A stretch of DNA of 64,000 nt from positions 4,960,001 to 5,024,000 of the forward strand of contig NZ_JAZHRV010000001.1 of NCBI RefSeq assembly GCF_036924595.1. The letters are read 5' to 3'. This DNA is from Bradyrhizobium algeriense. Lineage in GTDB: Bacteria > Pseudomonadota > Alphaproteobacteria > Rhizobiales > Xanthobacteraceae. The notes beneath the pieces were generated by a model that searched no databases, was not told where the DNA came from, and saw nothing but the letters and a program-made list of their open reading frames with translations. A program made the translations under genes and the position numbers. Position 1 is the first letter of the stretch. Every line of letters starts with the position of its first letter. Shown here piece by piece: positions 12,087 to 35,129 of this stretch.

Positions 12087-12092
12087 CGCTCA

Positions 12093-15226: not shown

Positions 15227-15334
15227 GGAGCATTCCCCCTTCTTGTCCGCTAATGCGTTCTCTCCTGTTCCCGGATAGACGCAGCTTCGACAGCAATGAC
15301 CCGCGCTAGAAGCCTCCGCTTCGCAGCATCGAAA

Positions 15335-15790: not shown

Positions 15791-15801
15791 GCCCATTCCT
15801 C

Positions 15802-16932: not shown

Positions 16933-17060
16933 GAGTTTCCTCCCTTGCGATAGGTCGTAACAAGACGTCACTCCTCTAACGCGATGCGAATCCGGCTCTT
17001 CGCGACCTCGCTACATTCTTTTCTTTGGCTCGATTGTCGCGTGTCGAGCCGAAGACGTCG

Positions 17061-17816
17061 TTACTTCCCGGAGCCGCCTTGCACTGAAGAGGCGCCCTTC
17101 TTCAGTTCGATATTCAGATCGCTCGGCTTCCCCGCCGCAACGGTCACCGCCTGCTCGTTCGGACCGGTGAAGGGGTGGTACGCGACCAGCTTGTAGTTTC
17201 CGGCCGGAACGTCGGGGATGGTGAATTTGCCGTCGGCGCCGGTGACGGCAAAGTAGGGATTGTCGGCGACATAGATAAACGCTTCCATCCAGCCATGTGC
17301 GTCACAATCGATGCGCACCTCGCCCGGCCGCGGCAACTCGACGGGAATTCGCTGACCCTGGTTGGGAAGAGCGAGGTTGAACACGGTGCGCTTGCCGTAA
17401 TAGCCGTGCGTGTTGTGGAGCATCGGATCGCTATTGACGACGTCCAGTCCCCCCACGCGTATCACCTGAATGTTGGGTTCGAATTTGCACTTGTTGTTGT
17501 TGATCTCCGGCTTCTTGGCTTCCGCCGGCCAGGCCTTTCCTTTCGTGATATCGGCCAGATACACGACGGCGTTCTGCACGCTCTTGTCCGGCCCGACTTG
17601 AATGAGCGTCTCCTCGTAGGGACCGCCGCACACCTCGATGTCCTTGGTCGGAATGACCTTGCGGGTGCCGGGGGTTCCGTTGAACACGACCTTGCCGGTG
17701 ATCGATCCGCCGCCCGCGACCGCGCTCGCTTCGTAGGCTGGCGCCGGGAGCGGCGTTGCCACCGCCGCGAGCACCGACGACACCCCGATCAGCCACTTCA
17801 TGGCTAAGCCCGTCAT
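17061..17816 (-). CDS. Exported cupredoxin-like / carboxypeptidase-regulatory-like protein
   Basis: A 251-residue exported protein. After the signal peptide comes a beta-sandwich opening (GSITGKVVFNG), then a region resembling methylamine-utilisation MauL-like blue copper proteins (HNTHGYYG, LPRPGEVRIDCDAHGWM), and last a carboxypeptidase regulatory-like fold (GADGKFTIPDVPAGNY). The His, Cys and His/Met residues in that middle part could bind copper. A nine-fold GA repeat immediately upstream supplies the only purine-rich site for the ATG at 17816; an ATG at 17801 is the alternative. Divergent from the sco gene. A copper or electron-transfer role is inferred. Confidence 0.75.
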   Translation of the reverse strand: MTGLAMKWLIGVSSVLAAVATPLPAPAYEASAVAGGGSITGKVVFNGTPGTRKVIPTKDIEVCGGPYEETLIQVGPDKSVQNAVVYLADITKGKAWPAEAKKPEINNNKCKFEPNIQVIRVGGLDVVNSDPMLHNTHGYYGKRTVFNLALPNQGQRIPVELPRPGEVRIDCDAHGWMEAFIYVADNPYFAVTGADGKFTIPDVPAGNYKLVAYHPFTGPNEQAVTVAAGKPSDLNIELKKGASSVQGGSGK

Positions 17817-17821
17817 CACAG

Positions 17822-17839
17822 CTCTCTCTCTCTCTCTCT
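17822..17839. repeat. Nine-copy CT/GA dinucleotide repeat in a 5' leader
   Basis: Eighteen bases of uninterrupted CT on the plus strand read as GA on the transcribed strand, five bases ahead of the ATG at 17816. It occupies the ribosome-binding-site position of the cupredoxin-like gene. Such tracts can change length by slippage. Confidence 0.85.
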
Positions 17840-18032
17840 TGATCCTTGATGTACGCAAGAAAATTCGTCGAGAGCTAACCGCCATTTGTAGGGACTAGGA
17901 AAATCAGAACTGCTTTGCGAGACCTTAAGCAAAGCTTATGAAGCTCGAGGGCAAAAATCGTCTAAGAAATACCCGCTGAAACAAGAGGGAAGTTTGTGGC
18001 GGCTAAGCACCGCCGCCGCGGGGAGGCATTTG

Positions 18033-18638
18033 ATGCGTCGCCGTCCCACATTTTCGGAACTCGGACGGGCAATTCCTTTCGGCATTGCTGTCGCGACCGC
18101 GTTGGTATTGAGCCAACCGCTCGTGCGCGCAGCCAACTCGCCGGTGACGATCGGTGGTCCGTTCACACTCACCTCACCTGACGGCACGTCAGTCACCGAG
18201 CAGACCTACCGTGGCAAATGGCTGCTGGTGTTCTTCGGCTACACCTCTTGTCCCGATGCCTGCCCCACGGCGCTCCTCGAGATTGCCGCCGCGCTCACAA
18301 GGCTCGGCCCCCACGCCGACAAGCTACAACCGCTGTTCATTACGGTCGATCCGCTGCGCGATACGGCGGCCGTAATGGGGAACTACACTCAGTCATTTGA
18401 TTCGAGAATCGTCGGACTCACCGGCACGCCGCAACAGATCGCTGCCGTTGCCCACGATTATGGGGTCTACTACACAGCCCGTCAGAACGGGCCAGGCGCC
18501 GATGACTACGTCATGGACCACAGCACCTATCTCTACCTGATGGACCCTGAAGGCAATTTTGTGCGCGGTTTTGACGCCGACACGACAGGCGAGCGCATTG
18601 CCGAGGCGGTGCGCGGCGCCATGGCAAAGGCTCGCTAG
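18033..18638 (+). CDS. Sco1/SenC/PrrC copper chaperone
   Basis: A 201-residue membrane-anchored thioredoxin-fold protein that delivers copper to oxidase CuA or CuB centres. The copper-binding cysteines C73 and C77 are in GYTSCPDACP and the third ligand is H163 in MDHSTYLYLMD, so all ligands are intact. A single hydrophobic segment at residues 14-34 anchors it in the inner membrane. The GGGGAGG site at 18020-18025 sets the start at 18033. It is divergent from the cupredoxin-like gene and closes the oxidase assembly block. Family assignment is firm. Confidence 0.92.
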   Translation: MRRRPTFSELGRAIPFGIAVATALVLSQPLVRAANSPVTIGGPFTLTSPDGTSVTEQTYRGKWLLVFFGYTSCPDACPTALLEIAAALTRLGPHADKLQPLFITVDPLRDTAAVMGNYTQSFDSRIVGLTGTPQQIAAVAHDYGVYYTARQNGPGADDYVMDHSTYLYLMDPEGNFVRGFDADTTGERIAEAVRGAMAKAR

Positions 18639-20045
18639 AATTCAAGTCATCGGGGACGATCAACGCAATGAAGCCCCCCGTAAATCCTGAAATCCATTTG
18701 TTCTGTGCGCGCGTGATGTGGTCTCCGACCCCGGCGGCCCAGAACCTGCTCGCCTTTAGCGCAGATCCCGGTGTTGCCTTCGACTTTTGAAGCAGCCTCG
18801 GCGACCGCGACGATCCCATTACGTGGCCCAATACATACCCTGCACGCTTGCTGTCTACGCTTGGTCCTGCCGTTACCGGTTCAGACCCAAGACTCGCTAC
18901 GAGGCGTCTGGCTAAGACCTACCTCGTCAGAACTTTCATCCGCTAGACATCATGAGCTTCTCCTGATGCACTTCAAATCCCGGAGGCGCAACCACCGATA
19001 CCGACATTCACTGAAAGTTCCGATCCGGCCGAGTTACGTCTCTCATAAATACAAACCTGACACCCCGCTCAATCGGTGCACTCAAGAAGGCTCGCCACGC
19101 GGCGGACCTAATCTACGGTGAATCCGGCCTTTATAACGTGACCGCGCTGGAGCGCGACCAAGTTCCCTTAAGCAAGCCTGGACCTGAGATACGGCGCAAG
19201 CACCCTCCTCCAGAAACGGCATACCAACCCGGATCGGATTCGTCCCGCAACACCGGCTTTTCCTTACCGGAGGCGAGTGGGTGATGGACGGGCTGAAGAT
19301 GGCCGTCGAATATTCAGCCAACTGGGACTACCCGGTGAGCGTCGGCGGGACGGGCAAAGTCGCGCATGGCTGGTTCGGATTGATCCAGCTCAATTTTTGA
19401 TCCGTCTGCGTCCGGCGCCTAGAGAACGAGCCAAAATCCTGGAAGCATCGTCACGACAGATGGAGTGAGCAGGCCGATTCCGGCCGCCCCTCACCATGAA
19501 CGCAAGAAGATTGCTGACTTCCGGTTAGCAGCAAAATGCAGTTGCGTTTTCGGTCGGAGCGATGGTGCGCGTTCCCACGCGCCAGCATAGAGCGCAGCCG
19601 CAGCGAATTGCGAAAGGTAGGCGGGCCGCAGTTCACCGACAGCGACATATGGCGGCTCGCGAGCAACAGCCGAACTCGATCACCCCCTGCGATCACAGAG
19701 TTCTTGCCAGCGACGCGCTCCCAGATGTCTCAGTGATCGCGAGCGAACGCTATCGTGCGCCATTCGCGGGGTGGCAGTCGCAATGATGTCCAGCAAGGCC
19801 GTGATGATATCGCTAACGGTGGAGTAGATATCGACCTGCTGAGCAGCGTGGCCCGATCCGCCACGAAAAGTGCTCACCTGCCGTGAACTGTGATGCGCCG
19901 GCATAACGATGCAAGAGCTTGCTGCGGCGAAGGACCGGCGTTTAAGGAGCAGTTAATACTTTTGCGCAAATGATAGACAACCAGCGCAACATTAGATCGT
20001 CGTAAGAAGTACGAGCAGAACTCAGGCCCCTCATGAGGGATTAGC
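18639..20045. other. 1.4-kb gene-poor stretch
   Basis: No complete gene is convincing in this interval. Short frames on both strands lack ribosome-binding sites and protein-like composition. One 40-codon frame at 18668-18790 opens with an ATG but has no other support. The segment near 19248-19400 looks like the 3' end of a decayed outer-membrane-protein gene. No tRNA or hairpin terminator was recognised. The stretch separates the respiratory block from the lipoprotein and secretion block and may be a site of past rearrangement. Confidence 0.5.
19248..19400 (+). pseudogene. Possible 3' remnant of an outer-membrane beta-barrel gene
   Basis: One frame reads ...FLTGGEWVMDGLKMAVEY..., continues with alternating polar and hydrophobic residues, and ends GWFGLIQLNF followed by a stop. 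A terminal phenylalanine in an amphipathic strand is the signature of outer-membrane beta-barrels. A neighbouring frame just upstream (LRYGASTLLQK) could be the continuation across a frameshift. No start codon or 5' part is found. This is a pattern reading only; it could be chance. Confidence 0.3.
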
Positions 20046-20654
20046 ATGAGAACGCTTCTCATTGGTGTTCTGGCTGCGACCCTGGTTGGCTGTAGCTGCC
20101 TTTTACCGCCGCAAGCGAGCATGGACGCGTGCATGGACGCGAGCGGGTCCGGCTGTCCCAACGGGATGGCGGTCAGTCGGTCGATTGAACCGGCGCCAGC
20201 GTCATCCAGGACCAATTCCGCGACAACAAAAGTCAAGTCCACGATCGCGACGAAGACGGAAAAGCCGTCGATTGCCGACGTCCGCGACAGGCCCCAACCC
20301 GCTGAGAAAAAGGCGAAGTCCTCCATGATCGAAGCGAAAGTCGAGGCTCCGGCATCTGGTCGGCCCGCTGAGACGTCCGATCCGGTAATTAGCAAGGCGA
20401 AGACCACGATTGCCGCGAAGTTGGAGGACCCGACATCTGCCGAGTTCGGTGAGATGAAACGGGCCATCCGCAAAAATACGCTCGGAAAATCCGTCGACAC
20501 CATTTGCGGCCGTGTCAAAGGAAAGAAAGCGTCGGGCGAAGATACTGGAGATAGGCCGTTTCTATATCTCGTGACGGAAGATGAAGCATACGTCGTCGAT
20601 GGTCCCGCGAATTCGGCGGCGGCGAGCGCGTATCGCAATATTTGCAGCAGCTAG
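20046..20654 (+). CDS. Putative lipoprotein, Ala/Lys/Thr-rich
   Basis: A 202-residue protein with a lipoprotein signal: MRTLLIGVLAATLVGC, where the lipobox LVGC places the acylated cysteine at residue 16. A low-complexity middle part rich in Ser, Ala, Lys, Thr and Pro follows. It contains two related blocks (KVKSTIATKTEKPS and KAKTTIAAKLEDPTS), suggesting a short internal repeat. The C-terminal 70 residues are more globular, with two cysteines (TICGRV, RNICSS) that may pair. Function unknown. It precedes the LuxR-type regulator on the same strand. Confidence 0.75.
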   Translation: MRTLLIGVLAATLVGCSCLLPPQASMDACMDASGSGCPNGMAVSRSIEPAPASSRTNSATTKVKSTIATKTEKPSIADVRDRPQPAEKKAKSSMIEAKVEAPASGRPAETSDPVISKAKTTIAAKLEDPTSAEFGEMKRAIRKNTLGKSVDTICGRVKGKKASGEDTGDRPFLYLVTEDEAYVVDGPANSAAASAYRNICSS

Positions 20655-20854
20655 CCCGGAACAACGGAACCGCTGCCAAGATCTGTTGCAACGGACCAGA
20701 AGGTCCCTGACGACGTTCCTGACGAACTTGAAAGTCGGAAGCACGTCGCGATCAGCAGCAATTCGCTGCAGAGTGTGTGGGGCAGACTTGCTCCATGGAA
20801 AATGGAAATCAAAACTGGTGGAGTACTCAGCGTTTCTCTGAACTCGAGGATATC

Positions 20855-21628
20855 ATGGACGATCTTATTAATCTCGCCGAACTAACCCAGGGGTCACCGC
20901 CGGTGCTCGTGATCATCGAGCAACATGTCCTGGCGCGTACGTGCATCCTCAATATCCTCAAGAGAGAACTCACTGGATTCGAGATCGTCGAGATGGCGAC
21001 GACGAGTGGCCTGAACTCATTATCCGGCAGAGATATCCGCTTGATTGCGCTGAATATCGGGGACAAGCAGATCACCGACCCTTCGATCGAGGAAAGCCTT
21101 GCCCTCCTCGCAGAATCCTGCCCGAAAGCGTCTGTTGCCGTGTTGTCAAATCGCAACGACGATGCGACGGCTTCAGCTGCGATGCAACGGGGAGTGCGCG
21201 GCTTTTTTCCGACATCGATCCCGGTCGAAGTCGCTGTTGCCGGATTACGGCTTGTCCTTGCCGGTGGGGTCTACCGACCGTTACCGATCGTTGGGCAAAA
21301 TGGAGCGTCGAGCCTCAAGGCGATATCGGAATGTCCCGACGCGCCCGAGCTATTCGGAGCTAACGAGGGTAACGGCGCCACCAGGATTGTGCCGGAGAAG
21401 GCGATGGTCGACCTTACGCCACGCGAACAACATGTGCTCGAGGCGCTGCAGCTCGGCCTTCCCAACAAGTTGATTGCCGTCAGGCTCAACCTTTCGGAAA
21501 ACACTGTAAAAATGCACATTCAACGCATCATGCGAAAATGCTCCGCGCATAACCGCACCGAGGCGGTCATTCGCTGGAGCCGGCGAGCCAACGGCCATGC
21601 GCAGCCCTCACGCGTGCGGTCATCCTGA
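20855..21628 (+). CDS. LuxR/NarL-type regulator with degenerate receiver domain
   Basis: A 257-residue response-regulator-like protein. The C-terminal LuxR helix-turn-helix is canonical (LTPREQHVLEAL ... NLSENTVKMHIQ). The N-terminal receiver keeps the fold but not the chemistry: the acidic pair is EQ, the phospho-acceptor position reads ALNIGD (Asn instead of Asp) and the conserved Lys is absent (GFFPTS). It is therefore unlikely to be regulated by ordinary phosphorylation. GAGG five bases before the ATG at 20855 sets the start; a GTG at 20777 and an ATG at 20795 are in frame. It converges with the type I secretion genes and may regulate them. Confidence 0.82.
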   Translation: MDDLINLAELTQGSPPVLVIIEQHVLARTCILNILKRELTGFEIVEMATTSGLNSLSGRDIRLIALNIGDKQITDPSIEESLALLAESCPKASVAVLSNRNDDATASAAMQRGVRGFFPTSIPVEVAVAGLRLVLAGGVYRPLPIVGQNGASSLKAISECPDAPELFGANEGNGATRIVPEKAMVDLTPREQHVLEALQLGLPNKLIAVRLNLSENTVKMHIQRIMRKCSAHNRTEAVIRWSRRANGHAQPSRVRSS

Positions 21629-21660
21629 GGGCTGCCTGCGCTCGCCGTTCCGGTCGCAGC

Positions 21661-23169
21661 TTAATCTTCGCGGAACGCGCCGTGGAAGCTGTCGAGCAGA
21701 GGCCTGAGAGCGTAGAGCGCCACGGTGCCGCGACCCGTCTTGATGAACACCTGGGCCGGCATTCCCGGAATAATCTGGACACCATCGATCCCCGCGCCTG
21801 CCGGATCCTGAACTCGAATCTTCGTTGCGTAGTAGGGCTGATCCGTGCGCTTGTCGACCAGACGGTCGGCAGAAACGTGCGTCACAGTCCCATGGAGCCG
21901 TGGCACGCGGCGCTGATTGTAGGGCAGGAGATTCACATCTGCGCTCAGTCCGGGACGGACCACATCGATGTCCTCGGGCCTGATGCGCGCAATAACGATG
22001 AGCCGATCCTGCCGGGGAACCAGATCCATAAGAGGTGCGCCGGCGCCAATGACGCCGCCTGGGGTATGGACCTTCAGGTCGGTTACCACGCCGTCCTGGG
22101 GCGCCTTGACCGCCGTTCGTGACAGTTGGTCGTCCGCCGCCTGCAGTCGCTCGCGTATTTGAAAAATCTGGTTTTGCACCTCGCGCAGCGACTGCGCGAT
22201 CTCGTTCTGACGGTCGTTATCGAGCTTGAGAAGAGTCGCCTGCGATTCGTTGATAACCTGCCCGGCGCGCGATATCTGCGCGACAATCTCACCCCGCCGC
22301 CCCTCGATGTCAGCCATCTCCCGCTCGAGGTTCAGAAGGCGCGGACGCCGCTCAAGTCCCTTGTTAACGAGCATCGCAACGGTCGCCGCCTCCTCGCGGA
22401 CGATTTCGATGCGCCTTGAGGCCGCGCTTTCCTGCGCCCTGAGGCCCTCGATCTCTTTCTCCACCTGCGACCTTTTCTCCCGATTTACGGCCGCTTGCGA
22501 TTGAAAGACCTGACGACGCGTTTCGAAGATGGCTTGCTGCCCCGCAAGGACATCTGCGACCGACGAACTAGCATACTGCGCCATCTCCAAGCTGGCCGAA
22601 AACAACACTTGTTCCTCTCCATGCTGTTCCGCCTGCAGCCGTGCTTCTCGCGCCGTCGCCTCCCACAACTGGCCTTGGAGGCCCTGCGCTTCGGCGCGCG
22701 CCTTGGTGTCCTCCAGCGAGATCAGCGTTTGTCCGGCGCGGACAACGTCGCCGTCCGCGACCAGAATTTCCCTGATGATGCCACCCTCGAGGTGCTGAAT
22801 CGTCTTGCGGCTCGACTCGGATTCGACGGTGCCGATCGCAATCGCGGCGCTCTCAAGGGGGGCATAGGTTGACCAGGTGCCGAGACCAACGACAAAACCC
22901 CAAACCAGCAAGTTTCCGGTCCAGGTGACGCCGCGAAGTCGGTCGCGGAGCGCCGGCGGCGCCGATCTCAACCACCGTGGGACCTCCCAAATCTCGACCT
23001 GAGCGAATGCAATTTTCAGGCGAGCCCATCCCCTTTGGGCAAAGAGACCGTGAGAACGTTTGATGCGGATCCAGGTGACACCGCGAAGCCGGTCGCAGAG
23101 CGCGGACGCCGCCGATCTCAACCATCGTGGAGCCTCTCGTATGTTGACGTGAGCGACTGAGATTTTCAT
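21661..23169 (-). CDS. prsE: HlyD/PrsE-type membrane fusion protein of a type I secretion system
   Basis: A 502-residue periplasmic adaptor linking the ABC exporter to an outer-membrane channel. It has one membrane helix near residues 86-105, a long coiled coil (residues about 170-340) and C-terminal barrel motifs (VKAPQDGVVTDLKVHTPGGV, IPGMPAQVFIKTG). The N-terminal cytoplasmic arm is unusual: residues 2-33 and 52-83 are near-identical copies separated by exactly 50 codons. The ATG at 23169 overlaps the stop of the ABC gene by 4 bases. Its 3' end faces the LuxR-type gene, 32 bases away. The symbol follows the PrsD/PrsE systems of rhizobia. Confidence 0.9.
   Translation of the reverse strand: MKISVAHVNIREAPRWLRSAASALCDRLRGVTWIRIKRSHGLFAQRGWARLKIAFAQVEIWEVPRWLRSAPPALRDRLRGVTWTGNLLVWGFVVGLGTWSTYAPLESAAIAIGTVESESSRKTIQHLEGGIIREILVADGDVVRAGQTLISLEDTKARAEAQGLQGQLWEATAREARLQAEQHGEEQVLFSASLEMAQYASSSVADVLAGQQAIFETRRQVFQSQAAVNREKRSQVEKEIEGLRAQESAASRRIEIVREEAATVAMLVNKGLERRPRLLNLEREMADIEGRRGEIVAQISRAGQVINESQATLLKLDNDRQNEIAQSLREVQNQIFQIRERLQAADDQLSRTAVKAPQDGVVTDLKVHTPGGVIGAGAPLMDLVPRQDRLIVIARIRPEDIDVVRPGLSADVNLLPYNQRRVPRLHGTVTHVSADRLVDKRTDQPYYATKIRVQDPAGAGIDGVQIIPGMPAQVFIKTGRGTVALYALRPLLDSFHGAFRED
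22921..23166. repeat. Tandem 150-base in-frame duplication inside the HlyD-type gene
   Basis: The DNA at 22921-23016 and 23071-23166 aligns almost base for base (for example CCGATCTCAACCA in both), offset by 150 bases. In protein it duplicates a block containing PRWLRSA and DRLRGVTW. The duplication keeps the frame and extends the arm before the membrane helix by 50 residues. Confidence 0.9.
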
Positions 23170-24902
23170 GAGACAGGCTCGCGCGAAGCAACTTGGGGGC
23201 GTGTCAAACACCTTTCGAAAATTTCCCTGCTCTCACCGAATGCGCTGACCACACCGCCTTGCATGATGGCAAGCTTGTTCGTTGCACCGAGGATCCCTAT
23301 CCGGTGGGTGATGATGATGACAGTTGTATTGGCCGCCTTCATCCGCTCAATGGCGTCGAAGAGCATGCGCTCGCCGAGAGCGTCCAGGCTGGAGTTCGGC
23401 TCGTCGAGGACCACAAGGTGCGGGTCGCCAAAGAACGCCCGTGCAAGGCCGAGGCGCTGGCGAAACCCACGCGGGAGATTGACCCCGCCGCCAACGACGA
23501 CCGTATCGTACGACTGCGGAAGCCGAATGATCGTCTCGTGAAGGCCGGCCAGCTTTGCTGCTTCAATGACCTGCTGCAAATCGGCGTCGTCCAGCCGGCC
23601 AATGATGTCCTTTACCGTCTCTCCGAAGAGATCGATATCCTGCGGCAGATATCCGAGGCGCCGGCCGCCGCCCGAATCGCGCACGGCTAAAACGTCGATG
23701 CCATCGAGCGAGACCGAACCTACCGTCGGAGCGGAGATTCCGGCAATGATTTTGCCGAGCGTGGATTTGCCGGAGCCGGAGGGACCAATGATGCCAAGAC
23801 ATTCACCGGGTGCGAGGTAAAACGACACGCCTTTCAGCATCAAATGGTCCGATCCTGGCAGGGCGGCGCCAACATTGTTAACGATGAGGTTACCCTTCGG
23901 CCGCTCCGGGAAGGCCTTGATGTTTTTAACCGGGGTGACAGCAGACATGATGTCGTTGAGCCGGCGGTAGGCGGCCAGGGCCATCGCGAAAGCCTTCCAT
24001 CCTGCAATCGCTCCTTCAATGGGCGCGAGCGCGCGTCCGAACAGCATGCTCGTGGCAAAGATGATGGCGGGACTTCTGCTCTGCTCCAGGACGAGCCAGG
24101 CGGCAGTGCCCATAATCAGTACCTGCGCCAGCGCCCGCACAGGTTTGGAGATCAGCATGATGGTCTCGTGGCGGCGTTGCACCACCGCTTGCTCGCTCCT
24201 TGCATCATGTGCAGCCTGGCCGATGAAGCGCGCGGCGCCGTCGAGCATTCCCATCGCCCTGATGACGTGGAGATTTCCGACGGCCATGGCGAACCACCCC
24301 TGGCTCCTCGTCAGTGCGGCAGCCGAGCGCGCCAGCGGGCCTTCCGTGAGCCTGTCTCCGGCAAACCCGAGACCCAGCAGGAGAAGCGCGCTGAGCGCGC
24401 CTATCACTCCCAGCAACGGATGCACAAGGAAAAGGACGCCGAGAAAGAGCGGCGTCCAGAGCGCGTCAAACAGCGTCGAGCTAGCTCCGGACTGAGCGAA
24501 CTGACGCAGGCTAGTAAGATCGCGATATGCTTCCGATGACCGCGCCCGATCGGCTTCATAGGCGTATTTGAAGCATGCGACGAGCGTAACCGGATGGAGT
24601 TCTTCCTCAAGCCACTCGCCCATCCGGCCCAATGCAGCGCGGCGCAGTGCGTCAAGCACTCCGCCAACTACGACGGCAAACGCAACGATCAGCGTCAGCA
24701 TCAGGAGCGTATCGCTGCTGCGGCTCGACAGAACGCGATCATAGATCTGAAGCAGATAGATGGAAGGCGCGAGAAGAAGGAGATTATAGCTGCAGCTATA
24801 CGCGAAAACGAGTCCAAGCGACCCTACGCAGGCCCGCAAGGCCGTCTTCAACGGCGTCCGTGGTGGTGACATCGTTTGCAGCCGGAGCGGTGGCATCAGC
24901 AT
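23166..24902 (-). CDS. prsD: PrsD-type ABC exporter ATPase/permease of a type I secretion system
   Basis: A 578-residue half-transporter: six membrane helices in residues 25-310, then the nucleotide-binding domain with Walker [10 protein letters not shown] at 373-381 and Walker B LVVLDE at 496-501, followed by PNSSLD as in PrsD/AprD exporters. The ABC signature is changed: LSGGQ is replaced by LPRGF at 476-480, while the flanking RQRLGLARA is normal. There is no N-terminal C39 peptidase domain, as expected for exporters of proteins with C-terminal signals. Overlaps the HlyD gene by 4 bases. An alternative start is the ATG at 24872. Confidence 0.92.
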   Translation of the reverse strand: MLMPPLRLQTMSPPRTPLKTALRACVGSLGLVFAYSCSYNLLLLAPSIYLLQIYDRVLSSRSSDTLLMLTLIVAFAVVVGGVLDALRRAALGRMGEWLEEELHPVTLVACFKYAYEADRARSSEAYRDLTSLRQFAQSGASSTLFDALWTPLFLGVLFLVHPLLGVIGALSALLLLGLGFAGDRLTEGPLARSAAALTRSQGWFAMAVGNLHVIRAMGMLDGAARFIGQAAHDARSEQAVVQRRHETIMLISKPVRALAQVLIMGTAAWLVLEQSRSPAIIFATSMLFGRALAPIEGAIAGWKAFAMALAAYRRLNDIMSAVTPVKNIKAFPERPKGNLIVNNVGAALPGSDHLMLKGVSFYLAPGECLGIIGPSGSGKSTLGKIIAGISAPTVGSVSLDGIDVLAVRDSGGGRRLGYLPQDIDLFGETVKDIIGRLDDADLQQVIEAAKLAGLHETIIRLPQSYDTVVVGGGVNLPRGFRQRLGLARAFFGDPHLVVLDEPNSSLDALGERMLFDAIERMKAANTTVIIITHRIGILGATNKLAIMQGGVVSAFGESREIFERCLTRPQVASREPVS

Positions 24903-24946
24903 TGCGGTCCCGCCAGAGATCTGAAGTCCGAACCTTCCGCCCCATT

Positions 24947-24998
24947 ATTCGTCGACTTCGCGACGAATTGAGACCGGCGGCGTTCAACCGCCGGTCTC
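24947..24998 (-). terminator. Two tandem hairpins between the cargo gene and the exporter genes
   Basis: An 11-base perfect stem (GAGACCGGCGG, 24970-24980, with CCGCCGGTCTC, 24988-24998) closes a 7-base loop. Next to it an 8-base stem (ATTCGTCG / CGACGAAT, 24947-24968) closes a 6-base loop. They lie just downstream of the 173-residue repeat-protein gene in the minus direction. There is no T-run, so a partial terminator or mRNA-stabilising element is as likely as a full terminator. Confidence 0.6.
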
Positions 24999-25016
24999 AC
25001 CCCTCACAGGCATCGA

Positions 25017-25538
25017 TCAGCTGAACATGCCTGAATCGTCGATATGGAAGTGCTCGGAATCGTTAAGCACGTCGTTCAGGTTCACGGATTCGATGCTAGC
25101 CTTGAAGTAAACATCTCCGCCTTCCGCCTTATTGTTGTTTCCGCCGTCGCCGCCGACGCCGGCCATCACCGTCTGACTCTGATCCGCAGCAAGCCAGTTT
25201 TCCTGATAGGCCGTCGTGTTGGCATCCACGTCGGATTTGTTATGGCCGCTCTCAGATTCCTGGTCGCCATTCGAGACGGCCTTTCCGCCCTCAGCCTTGG
25301 AATACTTCTCCGCCTTCGCATTCGCGCCCCCGGCGTCCCAGTATGCCTTCTGGTAAACGTCATCGCCGTTTTTGACGTGGACGTCGGCGCCTTCCGCCTT
25401 GTTGGTCGGCTCGAACTTGATACTCGGGTTGCTGATGATATTGCCCTCGTTGTAACCGTCTCCACCGTTACCTGCGCTGTTGCCGCCGGTCGATGCCTTG
25501 AACATGATCGTGTCTGAAGGAAATGATGCCTTTGCCAT
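25017..25538 (-). CDS. Gly/Asn-rich repeat protein, probable type I secretion cargo
   Basis: A 173-residue acidic, Gly/Asn/Lys-rich protein without a signal peptide. Residues 18-28 (GGNSAGNGGDG) and 118-141 (core DQSQTVMAGVGGDGG) are the two ends of the repeat module that is present four times in the neighbouring larger protein. Here there is one module with a lysine-rich insert containing KAEG repeats. The C-terminus HFHIDDSGMFS is acidic and hydrophobic, as in type I secretion signals. A GGGAGA site precedes the ATG at 25538. It stands directly upstream of the exporter genes, separated by hairpins. Cargo status is inferred. Confidence 0.75.
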   Translation of the reverse strand: MAKASFPSDTIMFKASTGGNSAGNGGDGYNEGNIISNPSIKFEPTNKAEGADVHVKNGDDVYQKAYWDAGGANAKAEKYSKAEGGKAVSNGDQESESGHNKSDVDANTTAYQENWLAADQSQTVMAGVGGDGGNNNKAEGGDVYFKASIESVNLNDVLNDSEHFHIDDSGMFS

Positions 25539-25699
25539 GTGAGTCTCCCTGATGTGGTTTGCACACTGTGCGTCCCAATGTGGACAGCAACGATCTTGGA
25601 TTTGGACACCGGATCGGTCTAGCCGCCAAAGCTGATGCCACCCTGTGGCAACGGTGTACGCCCGAAATGCTACGGTCCCGCCGCCGAGATCCGGCGAGC

Positions 25700-25840
25700 T
25701 TCAATGCCGCTGGAGCGTTTTCGAGCGAAGCATGCCCTGGGACTTGATCCGTGGGTAGAGACCGGTCCGCGTCAAGAAACTGCGTCAAATGAAAAATCGA
25801 GAGCTCCGTTTCGATTCTATCGAAACGGAAAAGGCTCTAG
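25700..25840. repeat. Bradyrhizobium-type dispersed intergenic repeat with hairpin
   Basis: The stretch containing GGAGCGTTTTCGAGCGAAGC, then GAGACCGGT, GCGTCAAGAAA and GCGTCAAA, and ending in a hairpin and AAAAGGCTCTAG, matches the layout of a dispersed intergenic repeat I know from Bradyrhizobium and relatives. The hairpin is a perfect 10-base stem (CCGTTTCGAT 25806-25815 with ATCGAAACGG 25819-25828) around a 3-base loop. It lies just after the stop of the 393-residue repeat protein and may terminate that transcript. Together with 25539-25699, where no gene is seen, it fills the gap between the two cargo genes. Confidence 0.6.
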
Positions 25841-27022
25841 CTAGGCATGATCCAGCAAGTGAAGGTCCGACAACAGGTGCATGGCGAAATCGCCGCCCAA
25901 CGCAGCGTTGCCGTGGCCGCCGTCACCACCGATTCCGGAAATCTGGATCGCGCTCTGATCGAACACGACATTGTTGCTCTGATGAGCATCGGCTGTTGAA
26001 TTGTAGCCGGCGACCGCAATGTTGATCGGGGCGTAGATCGCTACGTCGATGTCGACCATGCTTCCCGAGAAATGGCCGTTGCCGCCGTTGCCGGCGCTGT
26101 TGTTGCCGGTCGCAATTACGTCAGAGCCAATTAACTCGAAGATGGAAGAGAAAATGTCTGCAGTTCCGCCAACCGCGTGATTACCGTTCCCGCCGTCACC
26201 CCCCACGCCGGCCATCTGAAAAGCGGATTGATCGAACACCACATTGTTTGTCTGTTCGGCGTTGGCGGTGGAATTGTATCCGGCCACCGCGATGTTGATC
26301 GGATAGTAGAGCGCAAAGGTCGCGTGAACGATGCCCCCGTAGGCGTATCCGTCGCCACCATTGCCGGCGCTGTTGTCGCCGGTACCGGGCGCGTCAGAGC
26401 CGGTGGACCCGATCGCACTGACATTTCCACCCGATGCGGCATTTCCGTTGCCGCCATCGCCGCCAACTCCCGCGATCTGGGTCGCGGATTGATCGAACAC
26501 CACGTTGTTCGTCTGATGAGCGTCGGCCGTCGCATGCGGACCCGCCACCGCAATATTGATCGGGTTATAGACCGCGACAGGAGCATGCACCATTGCTCCG
26601 GAGAAGTAACCATCGCCACCGTTGCCGGCACTGTTGCCGCCGGTGGCAATCACGCCAAGGCCGGCAGGCCCGAGCGCGCCGACGCTTCCGCCCGATGCGG
26701 CGTTCCAATTGCCGCCATCACCGCCAACTCCCGCGATCTGGCTTGCGGACTGATCAAAATAGGCGATGTTCGTCTGATGGGCGAGAGCTGTCGCATGGAC
26801 GCCCGGCCACGCCACGTTGAGCGGCTCGAAACCAGCGTAGCTGCTATGGATCAGGCTCCCGGCAAAATAGCCGTTGCCGCCATTGCCGGCGCTGTTATCT
26901 CCCGTGTGGGTCGGGAAGTTTGGCCACGAATCCGCGGAAAGCCACCACGAGCCTGATGCATCGTACCCGAGCGGATACTTGATGCCGAGGTGAGCGCCGT
27001 CCGATACACTCCGAACACCCAT
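25841..27022 (-). CDS. Four-repeat Gly/Asn-rich protein, probable type I secretion cargo
   Basis: A 393-residue protein made almost wholly of four repeats of 87-91 residues starting at residues 41, 128, 215 and 306. Each begins G-x-NSAGNGG-x-G, continues through a PINIAVAG-like strand and a NVVFDQSA block, and closes with GVGGDGGNGN plus AASGG. There is no signal peptide and almost no lysine or cysteine. The C-terminus is LLSDLHLLDHA. AGGG upstream of the ATG at 27022 supports that start; a TTG at 27073 is in frame but lacks a site. The PrsDE-type exporter nearby suggests secretion without cleavage. I do not recognise a named family. Confidence 0.75.
   Translation of the reverse strand: MGVRSVSDGAHLGIKYPLGYDASGSWWLSADSWPNFPTHTGDNSAGNGGNGYFAGSLIHSSYAGFEPLNVAWPGVHATALAHQTNIAYFDQSASQIAGVGGDGGNWNAASGGSVGALGPAGLGVIATGGNSAGNGGDGYFSGAMVHAPVAVYNPINIAVAGPHATADAHQTNNVVFDQSATQIAGVGGDGGNGNAASGGNVSAIGSTGSDAPGTGDNSAGNGGDGYAYGGIVHATFALYYPINIAVAGYNSTANAEQTNNVVFDQSAFQMAGVGGDGGNGNHAVGGTADIFSSIFELIGSDVIATGNNSAGNGGNGHFSGSMVDIDVAIYAPINIAVAGYNSTADAHQSNNVVFDQSAIQISGIGGDGGHGNAALGGDFAMHLLSDLHLLDHA
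25892..26902 (-). repeat. Four tandem coding repeats (about 261-273 bases each)
   Basis: Repeat starts on the minus strand are at 26902, 26641, 26380 and 26107; the last, partial copy ends near 25892. The copies share the DNA words for NSAGNGG and for GVGGDGG, but differ in the middle, so this is an old, selected protein repeat rather than a recent expansion. It is coding and is not a CRISPR or satellite array. Confidence 0.85.
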
Positions 27023-27199
27023 GGCTGCTGCCCTACCGAAATCGCTTCGCGCCGACTGGACGGACGCTCCCAAACTCGAGAAAGAATGTCACCGCGGCAA
27101 GCCAAAAGCCGAGTCGTCAATTCGGATCGCAAACGTTCGGATGGTTGACATGATATCGGTTACGCCCATTCGGGCGTGGGTAGTGGTGCCTTGCCGTGA

Positions 27200-27457
27200 G
27201 TCTTGGAGACCACCGCGCTGCCGCAGATATTCGTGGCGCTGCGGCTTGCTTCGTCGCTTAGCCTCGTCGGCGCGATCGTCGGCGAATGGTTCGGCGACAC
27301 CACGGGTCTTGGCGTATTGCTGCTGCAGGCCATGTTCACCGAGAACGTGGTCGCGATCTGGGGCGCGCTGCTGGCCGCGGCGCTGCTTGGCACCGGCTTC
27401 TACGCCCTCGTCGCCGCGGCCGAACGGTGGCTGGTATTCTGGAGCGCGGAGCAATGA
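27200..27457 (+). pseudogene. 3' fragment of an ABC transporter permease gene
   Basis: The fragment encodes only the last 80 or so residues of a SsuC/TauC-type permease (LPQIFVALRLASSLSLVGA, the EAA-loop exit and final helices). A stop codon lies directly upstream in frame at 27197, and no 5' part is found in the preceding 170 bases. Full-length relatives have about 250-270 residues. The end overlaps the start of the intact permease gene by ATGA, the normal arrangement for a two-permease operon. The 5' part has evidently been lost where the repeat-protein block now abuts. Confidence 0.75.
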
Positions 27458-28215
27458 GCGGATCGCCCCTCGCCTCTTCTCCGCTTGCCGTACAACGGGG
27501 CATCCTCGGCGCGGTTCTACTGGTGGTGTGCTGGGAAGGGCTCGCGCGCGGACTGCATCTGCCGTCCTACGTTCTTCCCGCCGTCAGCGAGATTCTGGCC
27601 GGCGCCTGGTCCAAGCGCGCGCTACTGGGTGAGGCTGCGGGCTACACCGTGCTCGAAGCGCTGGTGGGCTACGGGCTCGGCTGTCTCATCGGCATTGGCC
27701 TTGCGGTCGCCATCACCATGCTCCCGACGCTCCGCGCCGTGATCCTGCCTGCAGCCACCGCCATCAACTCGGTGCCAGTGGTCGCCTATTCGCCGTTGAT
27801 CCTGCTCTGGTTTGGCATCGGCGTTGCGTCGAAGATGGTGATGGTGGCCATGGCGGTGAGCTTCACCGTCTTCCTGTCGACGCTCGCCGGGCTCGACCGC
27901 GTCGATCGCCGCGCCATCGATCTCATGCGCAGCTTCGGTGCGGGGCGGCTGAGCATCCTGTGGCGCCTGCGCCTGCCGACCGCCCTGCCGCTGCTGCTTG
28001 CCGGGATGCGCGTCTCCACCGTCCGCAGCCTCATCGTGGCGATTATCACCGAAATGCTTGGCGCCTATGGAGGGCTCGGCTGGGTGATCTACCAGGCAGT
28101 GCTGCAGATCGACTTCGTGCAGGTCTGGTCGGCGATCTTCGTTGCTTCGGCGGCGAGCCTGAGCTTCTTCGGCCTGATCGGCTTTCTCGAACGCAAAATC
28201 CTGTTTTGGAAATGA
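27454..28215 (+). CDS. ABC transporter permease, SsuC/TauC/RibX-type
   Basis: A 253-residue inner-membrane permease of the binding-protein-dependent transport family, with about six helices and the conserved EAA-type loop (RSFGAGRLSILWRLRLPTAL). Such permeases import sulfonates, riboflavin or pyrimidine precursors. It starts at the ATG at 27454 inside the stop of the truncated permease. A flavin monooxygenase gene begins 5 bases downstream, which suggests uptake of a compound that is then oxidised. With its partner permease truncated and no ATPase or binding protein adjacent, it may not be functional. Confidence 0.85.
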   Translation: MSGSPLASSPLAVQRGILGAVLLVVCWEGLARGLHLPSYVLPAVSEILAGAWSKRALLGEAAGYTVLEALVGYGLGCLIGIGLAVAITMLPTLRAVILPAATAINSVPVVAYSPLILLWFGIGVASKMVMVAMAVSFTVFLSTLAGLDRVDRRAIDLMRSFGAGRLSILWRLRLPTALPLLLAGMRVSTVRSLIVAIITEMLGAYGGLGWVIYQAVLQIDFVQVWSAIFVASAASLSFFGLIGFLERKILFWK

Positions 28216-28219
28216 TGCG

Positions 28220-29515
28220 ATGAAACGACAGATGCATCTTGGGCTGTTCATCCTGGGGACCGGCAGCCATGTTGCCGGCTGGCGCTACCCTGGTGCGGTG
28301 GACAGCTTCCAGAACTTTCCCGCGATTCAAGAGATCGGCCGCATCGCCGAGCGCGGCAAATTCGACCTGATCTTCATGGGCGACAACCTCTACGCGGATG
28401 CTACCGCCCATCCCTCCTACACGCTGCGGCTCGAACCGCTTACGATGCTGGCTGCGCTTTCCACCTCGACCAGCCATATTGGATTAGGTGCCACCGTTTC
28501 CACCACCTACAGTGATCCGTTCATGGTGGCGCGCGTGTTCGCCTCGCTCGATCACATCAGCAACGGCCGCGCCGCGTGGAATGCGGTGACGACAGCAAAT
28601 CCCGCGACCGCAGCCAATTTCGGCACCACCCATCCCGACCACGCCCGCCGCTACGAGATGGCCGGCGAATTCCTCGACGTCGTGAAGGGCCTCTGGGACA
28701 GCTGGGCTGATGACGCCATCGTTGCCGACCGCGCGAGCGGGCTCTATATCGATCCGGCGAAGTTGCGCTCGATCGACCATGACGGCGCCTTCTTCAAGGT
28801 GAAGGGCCCGCTCAATATCGGCCGTAGCCCGCAAGGCCATCCGGTGGTGCTGCAGGCCGGCGGCTCCGAGGCAGGCCAGGCACTCGCCGCACGCACCGCG
28901 GACATCGTATTCTCTGTTGTGCAGGACATAGACGAGGCCAAGGCCGGCTATGCGTCGCTGAAAAACCGCCTGCCGGCCCTCGGCCGCAGCGCAGAGGATG
29001 TGACGATGCTGCCGGGCGTCATGCCGATCGTCGGCCGCACCGACAAGGAGGCTTTCGAAAAGCTCAACGTGCTGCAGAGCTTCGTCAGCGGCACCAACGC
29101 AATCGCCATTCTCTCCGATCGCTTCGGCCGCGACATGTCAGCCTACGATCTGGATGGACCGGTTCCCGACATCGAGCCGTCCGACAGCTATCACAGCTTC
29201 GCCAGTGTCATGCTCGCCAAGGCGCGCCGCGAGAACATGACGTTGCGCGACCTCTATAATCTCACCGCCGCCGCGCGCGGCCATTGGGTGCTGTGCGGCT
29301 CGGCGATCAGCATCGCCGACACCCTGCAGCACTGGTTCGATGAATATGCCGCCGACGGCTTCAACGTGATGCCGCCATATTTCCATGAAGGTTTTGAGGA
29401 TTTCGTGCAGCTCGTGGTACCGATCCTGCAGGAGCGCGGCCTGTTCCGCGCCGACTATGAGGGGACGACGCTGCGCGATCATCTCGGCCTGCGGCGGCCG
29501 GAGAACACCTTCTAG
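28220..29515 (+). CDS. NtaA/SnaA/DszA-family flavin-dependent monooxygenase
   Basis: A 431-residue luciferase-like monooxygenase using reduced FMN, of the group that attacks nitrilotriacetate, alkanesulfonates, dibenzothiophene sulfone and similar compounds. Family marks include the opening MHLGLFILGTGSHVAGWRYP, HISNGRAAWNAVT, the FMN region GHPVVLQAGGSEAG and FAARTADI-like ALAARTADIVFS. It lies 5 bases after the ABC permease gene and is probably co-transcribed. The substrate cannot be told from sequence. A gap of 250 bases with no visible gene follows. Confidence 0.9.
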   Translation: MKRQMHLGLFILGTGSHVAGWRYPGAVDSFQNFPAIQEIGRIAERGKFDLIFMGDNLYADATAHPSYTLRLEPLTMLAALSTSTSHIGLGATVSTTYSDPFMVARVFASLDHISNGRAAWNAVTTANPATAANFGTTHPDHARRYEMAGEFLDVVKGLWDSWADDAIVADRASGLYIDPAKLRSIDHDGAFFKVKGPLNIGRSPQGHPVVLQAGGSEAGQALAARTADIVFSVVQDIDEAKAGYASLKNRLPALGRSAEDVTMLPGVMPIVGRTDKEAFEKLNVLQSFVSGTNAIAILSDRFGRDMSAYDLDGPVPDIEPSDSYHSFASVMLAKARRENMTLRDLYNLTAAARGHWVLCGSAISIADTLQHWFDEYAADGFNVMPPYFHEGFEDFVQLVVPILQERGLFRADYEGTTLRDHLGLRRPENTF

Positions 29516-29765
29516 CTGGTACCGGACGATCACCTCAACCTGCACGAAATCGTCATATCTGAATTATCACTGCACACATCCCTCAATTGGATTTGGTGCG
29601 ACTATGCTGCGCCGAACCGATCCGCCGACTGGTTGAAGTAGAGTGCGGCCGCCTGCGTTGCAGGATCGTGCCAGTGTACAATCGTCGCGCTGACGTAGAA
29701 TTGGTGCAACCACGGATTCATGCGGCGCCGGTCAGTCTTTCCGGTTCGTGAGCGAGAGCCACGAA

Positions 29766-30545
29766 CTAATGAAGGATCTGGTCGAGGAATGTCCTTGCCC
29801 GCTCGGACGCCGGATGATTGAAGAAGTCCTTCGGAGCTGCTTGCTCGACTATTTTTCCCTCATTCATGAACACGATCCGGTCCGCGACCTCGCGGGCGAA
29901 GCCCATCTCGTGGGTGACGCAGAGCATGGTCATGCCCTCTTCCGCCAGCTTCTTCATCGTCTCAAGCACTTCCTTGACCATTTCCGGATCGAGCGCCGAC
30001 GTCGGCTCGTCGAACAGCATGATCTTCGGCTGCATGCAGAGCGCGCGCGCAATGGCGACGCGCTGCTGCTGTCCGCCTGACAACTGCCCCGGAAACTTTT
30101 CGGCCTGCTCCGGGATCCGGACCTTGGTCAGGAAGTGCATGGCGAGATCCCTCGCCTCCTCCTTCGCCATTCCGTTCACCGTCATCGGCGCCAGGATACA
30201 GTTCTCCAGGGTCGTCATGTGCGGAAACAGGTTGAAGCTCTGGAAAACCATACCGGTGTCCCGCCGGATGGCATCGATGTTCTTCCGCTGATCATCCAGC
30301 TCGGTGCCGTTGATGTAGATCAGCCCCTGGTCGTGCTTTTCGATATGATTGATGCAGCGGATCAGGGTCGACTTCCCCGAACCGGACGGACCGCAGATGA
30401 CGATCTTCTCACCCCTGGCCACCTTGAGATCGATCTCGTTCAAGGCGGTAAAATCGCCGTAATATTTGTAGACCGCCTCCATTTGAACCGCGGCGACCTC
30501 GCGCATGCGCGGCTGGCCCTGTCCACCTTCAATATCGGCTGCCAT
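29766..30545 (-). CDS. Amino-acid-type ABC transporter ATP-binding protein
   Basis: A 259-residue ATPase of the GlnQ/HisP polar amino acid family: Walker [12 protein letters not shown]-loop [11 protein letters not shown], signature LSGGQQQR, Walker [15 protein letters not shown] and switch His in CVTHEMGF. The start at 30545 follows AAGGA; the frame is open 23 codons further but that part is Arg/Pro-rich and not protein-like. The cognate permease gene is 87 bases upstream on the same strand. It is the last gene of a minus-strand operon that begins with two DapA-family genes. Confidence 0.93.
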
Positions 30546-30632
30546 CGATCCGTTCCTTGGTGGCGCGCGCACCGGAGCTGCGCCTCGCGGTCGCAGCTTC
30601 GTTCCTCGCAACAAAATCTTCCCTCGGCACTT

Positions 30633-31364
30633 TCATGCCCTGGCCTCGAGGCCGGCTTGCGGCGACGACGCCGTTGCGGTGGTTCTTCGCGATCTTGTCG
30701 CGCTCGACCGGCCAAAGTGTTTTTCAAGGCGGCGCTGGACCACATCCCAGACCGAGGTGAGGATCAGGTAATAGGCGGTGGCGGCCGCATAGACTTCGAG
30801 GATCTGAAAATGCTCCTGCATCAGCATGTCGCTCCGGCGCATGATTTCCTCGACCGAGATGACGGAGGCGAGCGACGTCGCCTTCAGGAGCGAATTGATG
30901 GAGTTGCCGAGCGGTGGGATCATCAGGCGAAAGGCTTGCGGAAGCGTGATGCGCCGGAACGTCACCCATCTCGACAGACTTAGCGCCCAGGCGGCCTCCC
31001 GTTGCCCGGCAGATACGGCCATGAAACCGCTGCGAACGATTTCAGCAAGATACGCAGCCTCATTGAGGATCAATCCGATCAGGGCGCAGGTGATCACGTC
31101 AAACTTGATGCCCAGCTGCGGCAGGCCGCTGTAGATCACCACGAGCTGGATCAGGAGCGGCGTGCCGCGAAAGAACCAGATGTAGAACCGGGCGAAGCCG
31201 CTGAGCACAGGATTGGATGACATGCGCATCAGCGCAATGCCCATCCCCAGAATAAGCCCACCAACGACTCCGGCAACCGTCAAGCCGATGGTGACGAGTA
31301 CCCCCTTCATCAGGAAGAAATTGAAAAAGTAGTCGACGCTGGCCGCCAGATTGAAATGGGTCAT
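30633..31364 (-). CDS. Amino-acid-type ABC transporter permease
   Basis: A 243-residue permease of the HisM/GlnP family with five or so helices, the N-terminal family block FFRGTPLLIQL and the EAA loop (AWALSLSRWVTFRRITLPQA). The C-terminal 25 residues are Arg/Thr/Ala-rich and not membrane-spanning. Its ATG overlaps by 4 bases the stop of a decayed binding-protein gene, showing that the original operon order was binding protein, permease, ATPase. Only one permease is present, so it probably forms a homodimer. Confidence 0.92.
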   Translation of the reverse strand: MTHFNLAASVDYFFNFFLMKGVLVTIGLTVAGVVGGLILGMGIALMRMSSNPVLSGFARFYIWFFRGTPLLIQLVVIYSGLPQLGIKFDVITCALIGLILNEAAYLAEIVRSGFMAVSAGQREAAWALSLSRWVTFRRITLPQAFRLMIPPLGNSINSLLKATSLASVISVEEIMRRSDMLMQEHFQILEVYAAATAYYLILTSVWDVVQRRLEKHFGRSSATRSRRTTATASSPQAGLEARA

Positions 31365-31554
31365 CGGCTCATCTCCGTGTGGTATTCGGCAGCAATTTTC
31401 ATGCCGCCGTCGGGAGCGACGAAAACCGAGATCGCCTGCACAGCACGAGCCACCATGTACATCAGCTTCGAGCGCTCCTCGAACCCAAGCATGTCGCTAT
31501 CAATTCCGTCGGTCCGACCTGCCGAACGATAGGAATGAAGGCCTCGTCGGACAT
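31361..31554 (-). pseudogene. Frameshifted remnant of a periplasmic amino-acid-binding protein gene
   Basis: One frame (from 31554) reads MSDEAFIPIVRQV; after a one-base shift another reads GRTDGIDSDMLGFEERSK and continues with VQAISVFVAPDGG to a stop at 31361. The same series of blocks occurs in the intact binding protein encoded at 38456-39292 (GRFDTINTGLFWTEERSK, QQAISIYTDPASS). Only about 60 of an expected 270 residues remain, with both ends missing. It sits exactly where the binding-protein gene of this operon should be, so a large internal deletion is likely. Confidence 0.6.
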
Positions 31555-31564
31555 GACGGAGCCC

Positions 31565-32518
31565 TCAAGTCAGGTGAATGTCGCCGGCGCAGCGCGCCGC
31601 ACCGAGCGTCGTTGCGATGGCGTCGCAAAGATCAGGCAGAACCGGCAACAACGGCGGCCGCGGATCCGCATTGCGGATCAGCCCCAATGCCTTGAGGCCC
31701 ACCTTCATGCGCGTATGCATGTCGACGATCGGCGCCGGGCCGTAAATCGCCCGGACGATCGGGTGGAGCCGCTCGTTCACGACGCGCATCGCCTTGAGGT
31801 CGTCAGCGACCGACGCCTGCCAGAGTTCGATAAACAGATGCGGAGCCAGGCTGACGAGCCCGGACAGGATACCGTCGCCACCGACAGCGAGCTGCGGCAA
31901 AAACCAGTTGTAATTCGACGGCAAGACCGCGACCTCCGGATCGGCTTCTTTCACGGCCCGTCGGTTCTCGTCATAGGCGAGCATCGTGTCGCTACCCTCC
32001 TTGACGGCGATGACGCGGTCGATAGTCGCTATTTCTGCGAGCGTCTGCGTCGAATAGCCGAAGCCGGACGCCACCGGATACTGGAAGATAGACACCGGGA
32101 TTGCGATTGCCTCGCTAACCGCCCGCACGAAGGCGACCGGCGCGCGCGGTGTGGCCGATGCACCGCCACCAATGGCAGCAGGCGGAAACAGGACCGCGCA
32201 AGCCGCACCGGCAGCCTCGGCGAGCCGGGCCTGCCGGATGGCCTCTGCGGTCGAGTGCGCGATGATGCCGGCAAGCAGCGGCTTGCCGGCGATATGGGCC
32301 CGGGTCCGCGCGATGACCGCCTGACGCTCTTCGTCCGACAGCGAGGCGCCCTCGCCCGCATGCCCGTTGACGAAGACAGCCGCGATGCCGTCGGGACAGG
32401 CACAATAATCCAGCAGCCGGGCATAGCCGTCCCAGTCAATCGACAGGTCGTCCTTGAACGGCAGCACGGTGGCGACGGTGACGCCGCGCAGATCGAGTTT
32501 TTTCATCAGATCGCTCAT
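31565..32518 (-). CDS. DapA-family lyase/aldolase (first copy)
   Basis: A 317-residue class I aldolase-fold enzyme of the dihydrodipicolinate synthase / N-acetylneuraminate lyase superfamily. The Schiff-base lysine is in VIAVKEGSD and the proton-relay tyrosine in IFQYPV. The usual GTTGE substrate loop is changed to NGHAGEGAS, which argues against true DapA function and for a keto-acid lyase or hydratase role. Its start is 64 bases after the second DapA-family gene. It belongs to a minus-strand operon running into the ABC transporter. Confidence 0.9.
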   Translation of the reverse strand: MSDLMKKLDLRGVTVATVLPFKDDLSIDWDGYARLLDYCACPDGIAAVFVNGHAGEGASLSDEERQAVIARTRAHIAGKPLLAGIIAHSTAEAIRQARLAEAAGAACAVLFPPAAIGGGASATPRAPVAFVRAVSEAIAIPVSIFQYPVASGFGYSTQTLAEIATIDRVIAVKEGSDTMLAYDENRRAVKEADPEVAVLPSNYNWFLPQLAVGGDGILSGLVSLAPHLFIELWQASVADDLKAMRVVNERLHPIVRAIYGPAPIVDMHTRMKVGLKALGLIRNADPRPPLLPVLPDLCDAIATTLGAARCAGDIHLT

Positions 32519-32582
32519 GACGGTTTGCGCCGCCGAACTGTACGACCACGAAGAACGGATGCGATCATGCTGCGCCCTTTCC

Positions 32583-33500: not shown

Positions 33501-33565
33501 CGAAGAACTTCCAGTTGCTCAGGTGAACTCGGGCAGCGGCCTCTGCCGCACACCTCCATGTGCGC

Positions 33566-33579
33566 TGCAATCGATTGCA
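33566..33579. promoter_or_regulatory. LacI-family operator, site 1
   Basis: TGCAATCGATTGCA is a perfect 14-base palindrome centred on CG and fits the LacI/GalR-family pattern TGnAAnCGnTTnCA. It lies between the divergent DapA-family gene and the LacI-type regulator gene, 66 bases before the start of the former. Confidence 0.75.
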
Positions 33580-33652
33580 GAACTGACGCTGATTTGGGCA
33601 GAACCCATCTCTAATTTAGGCTTGCACACGTAAATTTCCGCCAATAATGTTT

Positions 33653-33666
33653 TGCAATCGTTTCCA
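33653..33666. promoter_or_regulatory. LacI-family operator, site 2
   Basis: TGCAATCGTTTCCA also fits TGnAAnCGnTTnCA at every fixed position. It ends 17 bases before the regulator start codon and shares the half-site TGCAATCG with site 1, 87 bases away. Autoregulation and looping between the two sites are plausible. Confidence 0.7.
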
Positions 33667-33683
33667 TTTTAGCGGCGAGATTG

Positions 33684-34742: not shown

Positions 34743-34745
34743 CCG

Positions 34746-35114: not shown

Positions 35115-35129
35115 GGGAAGCGTCACGCC

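Follow-up and report, generated by a model that had tools for sequence, protein, structure and literature searches.

The window analysed here, a stretch of 64,000 nucleotides of Bradyrhizobium algeriense (contig NZ_JAZHRV010000001.1, positions 4,960,001 to 5,024,000), belongs to a genome assembled as a single 8.1-Mb contig. At 20046-27022 it carries a block of six genes, coding for a type I ATP-binding cassette (ABC) exporter, an HlyD-type adaptor, two repeat proteins, a LuxR-type regulator and a 202-residue protein. The two repeat proteins are built from the same module of about 73 residues and are inherited together with one clade of exporters, in which the ATP site is altered. We tentatively read the block, with slightly less than even confidence, as a type I system dedicated to the export of a matrix protein that is a stacked beta-solenoid and probably forms fibres. 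The machinery is of a known kind, while neither the cargo class nor the exporter subgroup is known from the libraries searched. The original prediction, made from the sequence alone, had proposed an undescribed system, and searches of open-licence papers brought up no published system with such cargo.

The exporter and its pairing with the repeat proteins

The four genes of the minus strand follow each other, from upstream to downstream, as the gene of the 393-residue protein, or major cargo (25841..27022, ATG at 27022), that of the 173-residue protein, or minor cargo (25017..25538), the ABC exporter (23166..24902) and the HlyD-type periplasmic adaptor of 516 residues (21661..23211). The ABC protein passes the NCBIfam model TIGR01842 (type_I_sec_PrtD) with E 1.2e-160 and 535.6 bits for a cut-off of 510.15. 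The adaptor, found in the list of open reading frames (ORFs) and by its profile match, passes TIGR01843 (type_I_hlyD) with E 1.6e-111 and 373.2 bits for a cut-off of 208.65. The predicted exporter of this type beside two proteins of the same module is thereby confirmed. The TolC-type outer-membrane channel family PF02321 is present at three places elsewhere in the genome and at none in the window. In many adaptor orthologues the alignment covers only about 430-460 of the 516 residues; the listed adaptor start may, because of this, be too early, with the true start further in. An internal duplication (PRWLRSA..ALxDRLRGVTW twice) was seen by eye in its predicted N-terminus.

The LSGGQ signature is a general feature of ABC ATPases. 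It is found in none of the 53 block exporters aligned, 50 of which carry [FL][SP]RG[YFL] instead (LPRGF in the window); the other three read LLRAQ, LLLGH and, in one row that is misaligned or broken, LSPAPRAC. The motif is LSGGQ or LSAGQ in five further type I exporters encoded by this genome. As the TIGR01842 cut-off is passed, the loss of LSGGQ is treated as a deviation within the family and the protein is kept as a type I exporter. The block contains no second ABC gene of this system, hence a homodimer of the exporter would have two altered sites.

PrtD/PrsD-type systems, such as the rhizobial PrsDE with its Rap/Ply cargo, resemble the block in having an ABC permease/ATPase and an HlyD adaptor beside the cargo genes, and the gene of the outer-membrane channel outside the cluster. 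They differ in that no RTX or cadherin-like domain was detected in the block cargo and in that the block exporter forms a group of its own, with [FL][SP]RG[YFL] instead of LSGGQ. PrsDE belongs to the same exporter family as the block exporter (PrtD, TIGR01842). For the Ra/CHDL cadherin-like domain of Rap, no match was obtained in a general Pfam scan at E<=1 that used no Ra-specific model.

Sixty related genomes, among them that of the window, were searched with the repeat profile, and their exporters were compared with that of the window (E<=1e-60, best candidates scored). Profile matches occurred in 16/60 genomes, and an exporter at 54-100% identity was present in the same 16 and in no other, adjoining the repeat genes in all of them. 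Block exporters are at least 52% identical to the window's, whereas all other exporters reported in the 60 genomes reach at most 41%. Among 15 fully read neighbourhoods, 14 have the six genes and one, in genome G058, is without the 202-residue gene. The close protein relatives that bear organism names are from Bradyrhizobium. In a collection of named genomes, 52 loci were obtained (51 Bradyrhizobium and one Microvirga puerhi), and 50 of them have the complete six-gene set in one order and orientation; the incomplete ones are a locus cut by a contig end (L095) and that of Microvirga, which lacks the 202-residue gene. The exporter stands next to the cargo at every readable locus except one cut by a contig end, so that the repeats are not found mainly away from type I exporters. 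The co-occurrence and adjacency with one exporter clade lead us to conclude that exporter and cargo very probably belong together.

Nine plasmid records match, and the eight that were examined come from Bradyrhizobium (2), Rhizobium (4) and Sinorhizobium (2). Each of the eight has the genes of the two repeat proteins, of exporter and adaptor, and one of response-regulator type; the 202-residue gene is on both Bradyrhizobium plasmids and was not found on the other six. Three are typed conjugative, the two of Bradyrhizobium and one of Sinorhizobium. The block can probably move, because the full six-gene set sits on Bradyrhizobium plasmids so typed (L137 and L143). In the six Rhizobium/Sinorhizobium plasmid loci and in G058 the exporter has the signature LLRAQ and a Walker B ending in DDP instead of DEP; this combination was noted at plasmid loci L138, L139, L140, L141, L142 and L144, and also at L047. 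G058, assigned to a different family within the order, is probably Rhizobium-like, since five of its genes match a Rhizobium plasmid at 87-98% identity. Broader draws, counting the window's own genome, were positive in 6/296 (family), 4/297 (order), 1/289 (class) and 5/299 (phylum) genomes, with E<=1e-6 in the family and order draws and one weak half-module match (G968, E 2.5e-4) included in the phylum count; a filter applied to G968 afterwards yielded no ORF for this match. Being samples, such draws may overlook carriers, Rhizobium and Sinorhizobium among them. No match was found among phage records.

The repeat module and its predicted fold

A hidden Markov model (HMM) of 73 positions, trained on 20 modules, identifies four full copies in the 393-residue protein, at residues ~40-112, 127-199, 214-286 and 305-377. 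In the 173-residue protein it identifies a single module in two pieces, covering profile positions 1-40 and 37-73, between which lies a Lys/Glu/Asn-rich insert of ~55 residues. The predicted count of four modules and one was therefore borne out, but the copy of the small protein is split. Of the two motifs proposed as module boundaries, G-x-NSAGNGG is exact throughout (four in the large protein, one in the small), whereas GVGGDGG, found once in the small protein, is exact in only three of the four copies of the large one, the fourth being GIGGDGG.

Large proteins have four modules in 49/54 loci and five in 5/54, and both half-modules were detected in 51 of the 52 small proteins having any HMM match. 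The small-protein set comprised 54 picked sequences, and outside the 51 are L106 (wrong ORF), L126 (no HMM match) and L047 (matched as overlapping pieces). Since these module counts hold in 54/54 large and 51/52 small homologues, the repeat architecture is not due to chance. Five full modules were seen in the large protein of L121, and an extra module of weaker score at the N-terminal end in L110, L112, L113 and L125. A Tyr/Gly-rich ORF lying near the block of L106 (Bradyrhizobium sp. URHD0069, 8856-9467, minus strand) has no kinship to the module.

Gln44, Asn46, Gln52, Gln56, Asn30 and Asn68 are conserved at 97-100% in 220 modules. The 393-residue protein contains 19% Gly, 9% Asn and no Cys, and its only two basic residues (K/R) are both within the first 15. 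As the original prediction had it, the module corresponds to no named family: neither cargo protein matches a Pfam or NCBIfam family at E<=1. Classical RTX repeats, also predicted to be lacking, were not detected, PF00353 not being listed for 104 homologues (50 + 54) in a Pfam scan at E<=10 with HMMER filters applied; the curlin family is equally absent among the Pfam matches listed for them. Weak matches of the 50 large homologues to PF13605 (DUF4141, best 0.0012, 6 members), PF15999 (DUF4774, best 0.003, 8 members) and six weaker families were taken as composition-driven, and the 393-residue protein of the window itself has none of them. Among PDB sequences, a profile matched nothing but light-harvesting proteins, at E 0.04-0.25, and these matches were taken as glycine-driven. 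Some annotation pipelines label the cargo homologues PE-PGRS, a name that looks composition-driven. The mycobacterial PE-PGRS proteins have similar Gly/Asn-rich stretches, but no PE domain match was found in the block cargo, and they belong to different organisms and to a different export route.

By eye, no hydrophobic N-terminal signal is visible in either cargo protein, in line with the predicted lack of a signal peptide. The candidate C-terminal signal of the large protein is an HLLSDLHL-type ending in Bradyrhizobium (HLLSDLHLLDHA at the C-terminus of the window's protein) and LVDDILSF-like in Rhizobium, while the C-terminus of the small protein is not alike between the groups.

Over module positions 12-58, the mean entropy is 0.81 bits at even positions versus 1.96 bits at odd ones (rank test p 1.4e-5), a contrast equalled in 0/20000 column shuffles; this test permutes columns and not sequences, and modules from related proteins are non-independent samples. 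The flanks, positions 1-11 and 59-73, present no significant alternation (p 0.12 and 0.39). The alternation therefore points to beta-strands with one buried face, and structure prediction likewise gives beta-strands for the repeats. Curli CsgA, FapC and beta-solenoids are among the weak matches obtained by comparing structures. FapC is the top row in Foldseek, though weak, and its Z in VIA is only 2.5 among the matches listed; adhesin beta-helices are also among the Foldseek and VIA matches listed. A layered beta-solenoid is the best structural reading, and we consider it likely for the cargo; the original prediction had expected a beta-solenoid or a beta-roll.

Proposed mechanism and alternative explanations

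From the above we infer how secretion, stacking between molecules, subunit roles, regulation and matrix function might be organised. The block would be a self-contained type I secretion module, whose exporter and adaptor would dock a TolC-type channel encoded elsewhere and pass both repeat proteins in one step, by means of C-terminal signals, with neither signal peptide nor RTX calcium repeats. Outside the cell, each module of ~73 residues would fold as one predicted beta-solenoid layer, in which the inward face (even positions) would hold small residues and the invariant Asn/Gln, the outward face would be variable and Gly/Asn-rich turns would join the layers. The four-layer 393-residue protein would be the building unit; its molecules would probably stack end to end, as those of FapC and CsgA do, and so build up a fibre or matrix. 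The one-layer 173-residue protein with its charged insert would probably be the nucleator, cap or anchor of the stack. A CsgD-like LuxR regulator, phosphorylation-independent, would switch the system on. Taken by itself, the formation of fibres by the cargo is a plausible but somewhat doubtful step. A bolder proposal, which we regard as rather unlikely, is a functional-amyloid system besides curli and Fap, that is a cross-beta fibre of 73-residue Asn/Gln layers, exported in one step by a dedicated type I system whose motor has lost LSGGQ (and, in the Rhizobium version, the catalytic Glu of Walker B as well). Such a system would occur in bacteria associated with legumes and be carried in part on conjugative plasmids.

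Fap of Pseudomonas (FapC/FapB) is like the block in its imperfect repeats, invariant Asn/Gln, Gly-rich linkers and two repeat proteins side by side (PMC12392863 and PMC12822426). It has an operon of its own, fapABCDEF (PMC12822426), and FapC has three repeats (PMC12392863), whereas the block would export by a type I ABC system, and its large protein has four repeats, its small one a single split copy. No sequence homology was detected between the block cargo and Fap in a comparison made without a Fap repeat profile, and the fold match is weak. Curli also differ, as no curlin family is listed for the cargo and none of the six block genes matches CsgG/E/F (Pfam/NCBIfam). Curli repeats have ~22 residues, against 73 in the block.

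The cargo might instead, though we think this rather improbable, be exported by the dedicated system and work as beta-solenoid adhesins or lectins, soluble or cell-bound, that bind polysaccharide or plant surfaces and form no fibres. The adhesin beta-helices among the structural matches and the family shared with PrsDE favour such a role, and the Rap proteins, which are rhizobial type I cargo of PrsDE, bind exopolysaccharide according to PMC9298526. However, no cadherin-like or RTX domain was detected by Pfam, and a variable outward face with a conserved inward one is more in keeping with a scaffold than with a binding site, which would be conserved. It is unlikely that the repeat proteins are cytoplasmic or unexpressed, the exporter adjacency reflecting another cargo. 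They have no signal peptide and their secretion is something that we infer, but they co-occur with and adjoin one exporter clade in Bradyrhizobium, Microvirga, Rhizobium and Sinorhizobium, and the sole other conserved candidate cargo in the block, the 202-residue protein, is lacking in six plasmid loci and in Microvirga.

The RTX nonapeptide motif is GGxGxDxUx, and the cargo of type I systems usually consists of RTX proteins. AGNGGDGYF in the module resembles one such nonapeptide, which would allow a calcium-folded beta-roll, a degenerate RTX variant with GNGGDGY in its place. We hold this to be very unlikely, as the motif is not in tandem, and an RTX origin was rejected because PF00353 is not listed for the 104 homologues at E<=10 and the Asp at position 11 varies (D 0.53, N 0.22, S 0.15). 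Bacteriocins can be exported by small dedicated type I systems, and the patchy distribution and the occurrence on plasmids typed conjugative would fit an antibacterial or effector protein, contact- or diffusion-based, exported by its own type I system. That explanation is the least probable, given that no enzymatic or pore-forming domain was detected (Pfam/NCBIfam), that no gene of the block is an obvious immunity gene, with the possible exception of that of the 202-residue protein, and that the four-repeat architecture is conserved and not diversified.

Regulator, surrounding genes and significance

The genes of the LuxR-type regulator (20777..21628) and of the 202-residue protein (20046..20654) are on the plus strand and face the minus-strand genes. 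The regulator has a receiver-like N-terminus with a weak Pfam receiver match (E 0.18), and its presumed phospho-Asp column is N/S/T in the 49 rows shown of 53. Curli are controlled by CsgD. The 202-residue protein, a conserved member of the block in its Bradyrhizobium version, has a short hydrophobic N-terminus and matches no Pfam or NCBIfam family at E<=1; the window copy has a lipobox-like LVGC that is not in all relatives. Upstream of the 393-residue gene (27023..27160, minus strand) conserved words include ATCCGAA in two copies; it occurs in 47/52 upstream regions of genes of this type and is possibly a regulator site. No promoter word common to both cargo genes was obtained, as no 7-mer passed the filter in both groups for the 173-residue gene. 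A terminator-like hairpin with a 10-bp stem and a weak T run was noted by eye 3' of the 393-residue gene (25791..25831, minus strand).

The original prediction also tied the block, tentatively, to an exopolysaccharide locus. The cluster of this type at 40950-59223 comprises, by eye, a UDP-glucose epimerase, an export protein, a flippase, a chain-length regulator, glycosyltransferases and an initiating sugar transferase, with a glycanase-like secreted gene on the opposite strand (45924-46715, also by eye). It starts ~14 kb from the block, beyond the comparison loci, which reach at most 10 kb. When window ORFs of at least 150 residues (5001-20000 and 27031-42000) were compared with the 52 loci, only three had a match of at least 50% identity. 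One of these was an ABC gene and the other two were short or antisense stretches, and each was matched in 1-2/52 loci. When five loci served as queries, no ORF lying clearly beyond the block recurred in more than 6 other loci, and no gene outside the block is widely shared within ~10 kb in the 52 loci. The link to exopolysaccharide is, over the 10 kb or less that these loci span, unsupported rather than excluded.

If the proposed reading is true, rhizobia would hold a conserved, self-contained protein-matrix system that is recorded in the searched databases only as hypothetical or PE-PGRS. Type I secretion would gain a new cargo class and an exporter motor of an unusual kind, a presumed homodimer whose ATP sites are altered, and the cargo would likely be a new extracellular scaffold relevant to root colonisation. 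Should experiments confirm it, this would be a new way of building a bacterial protein matrix, in the soil bacteria of root nodules.
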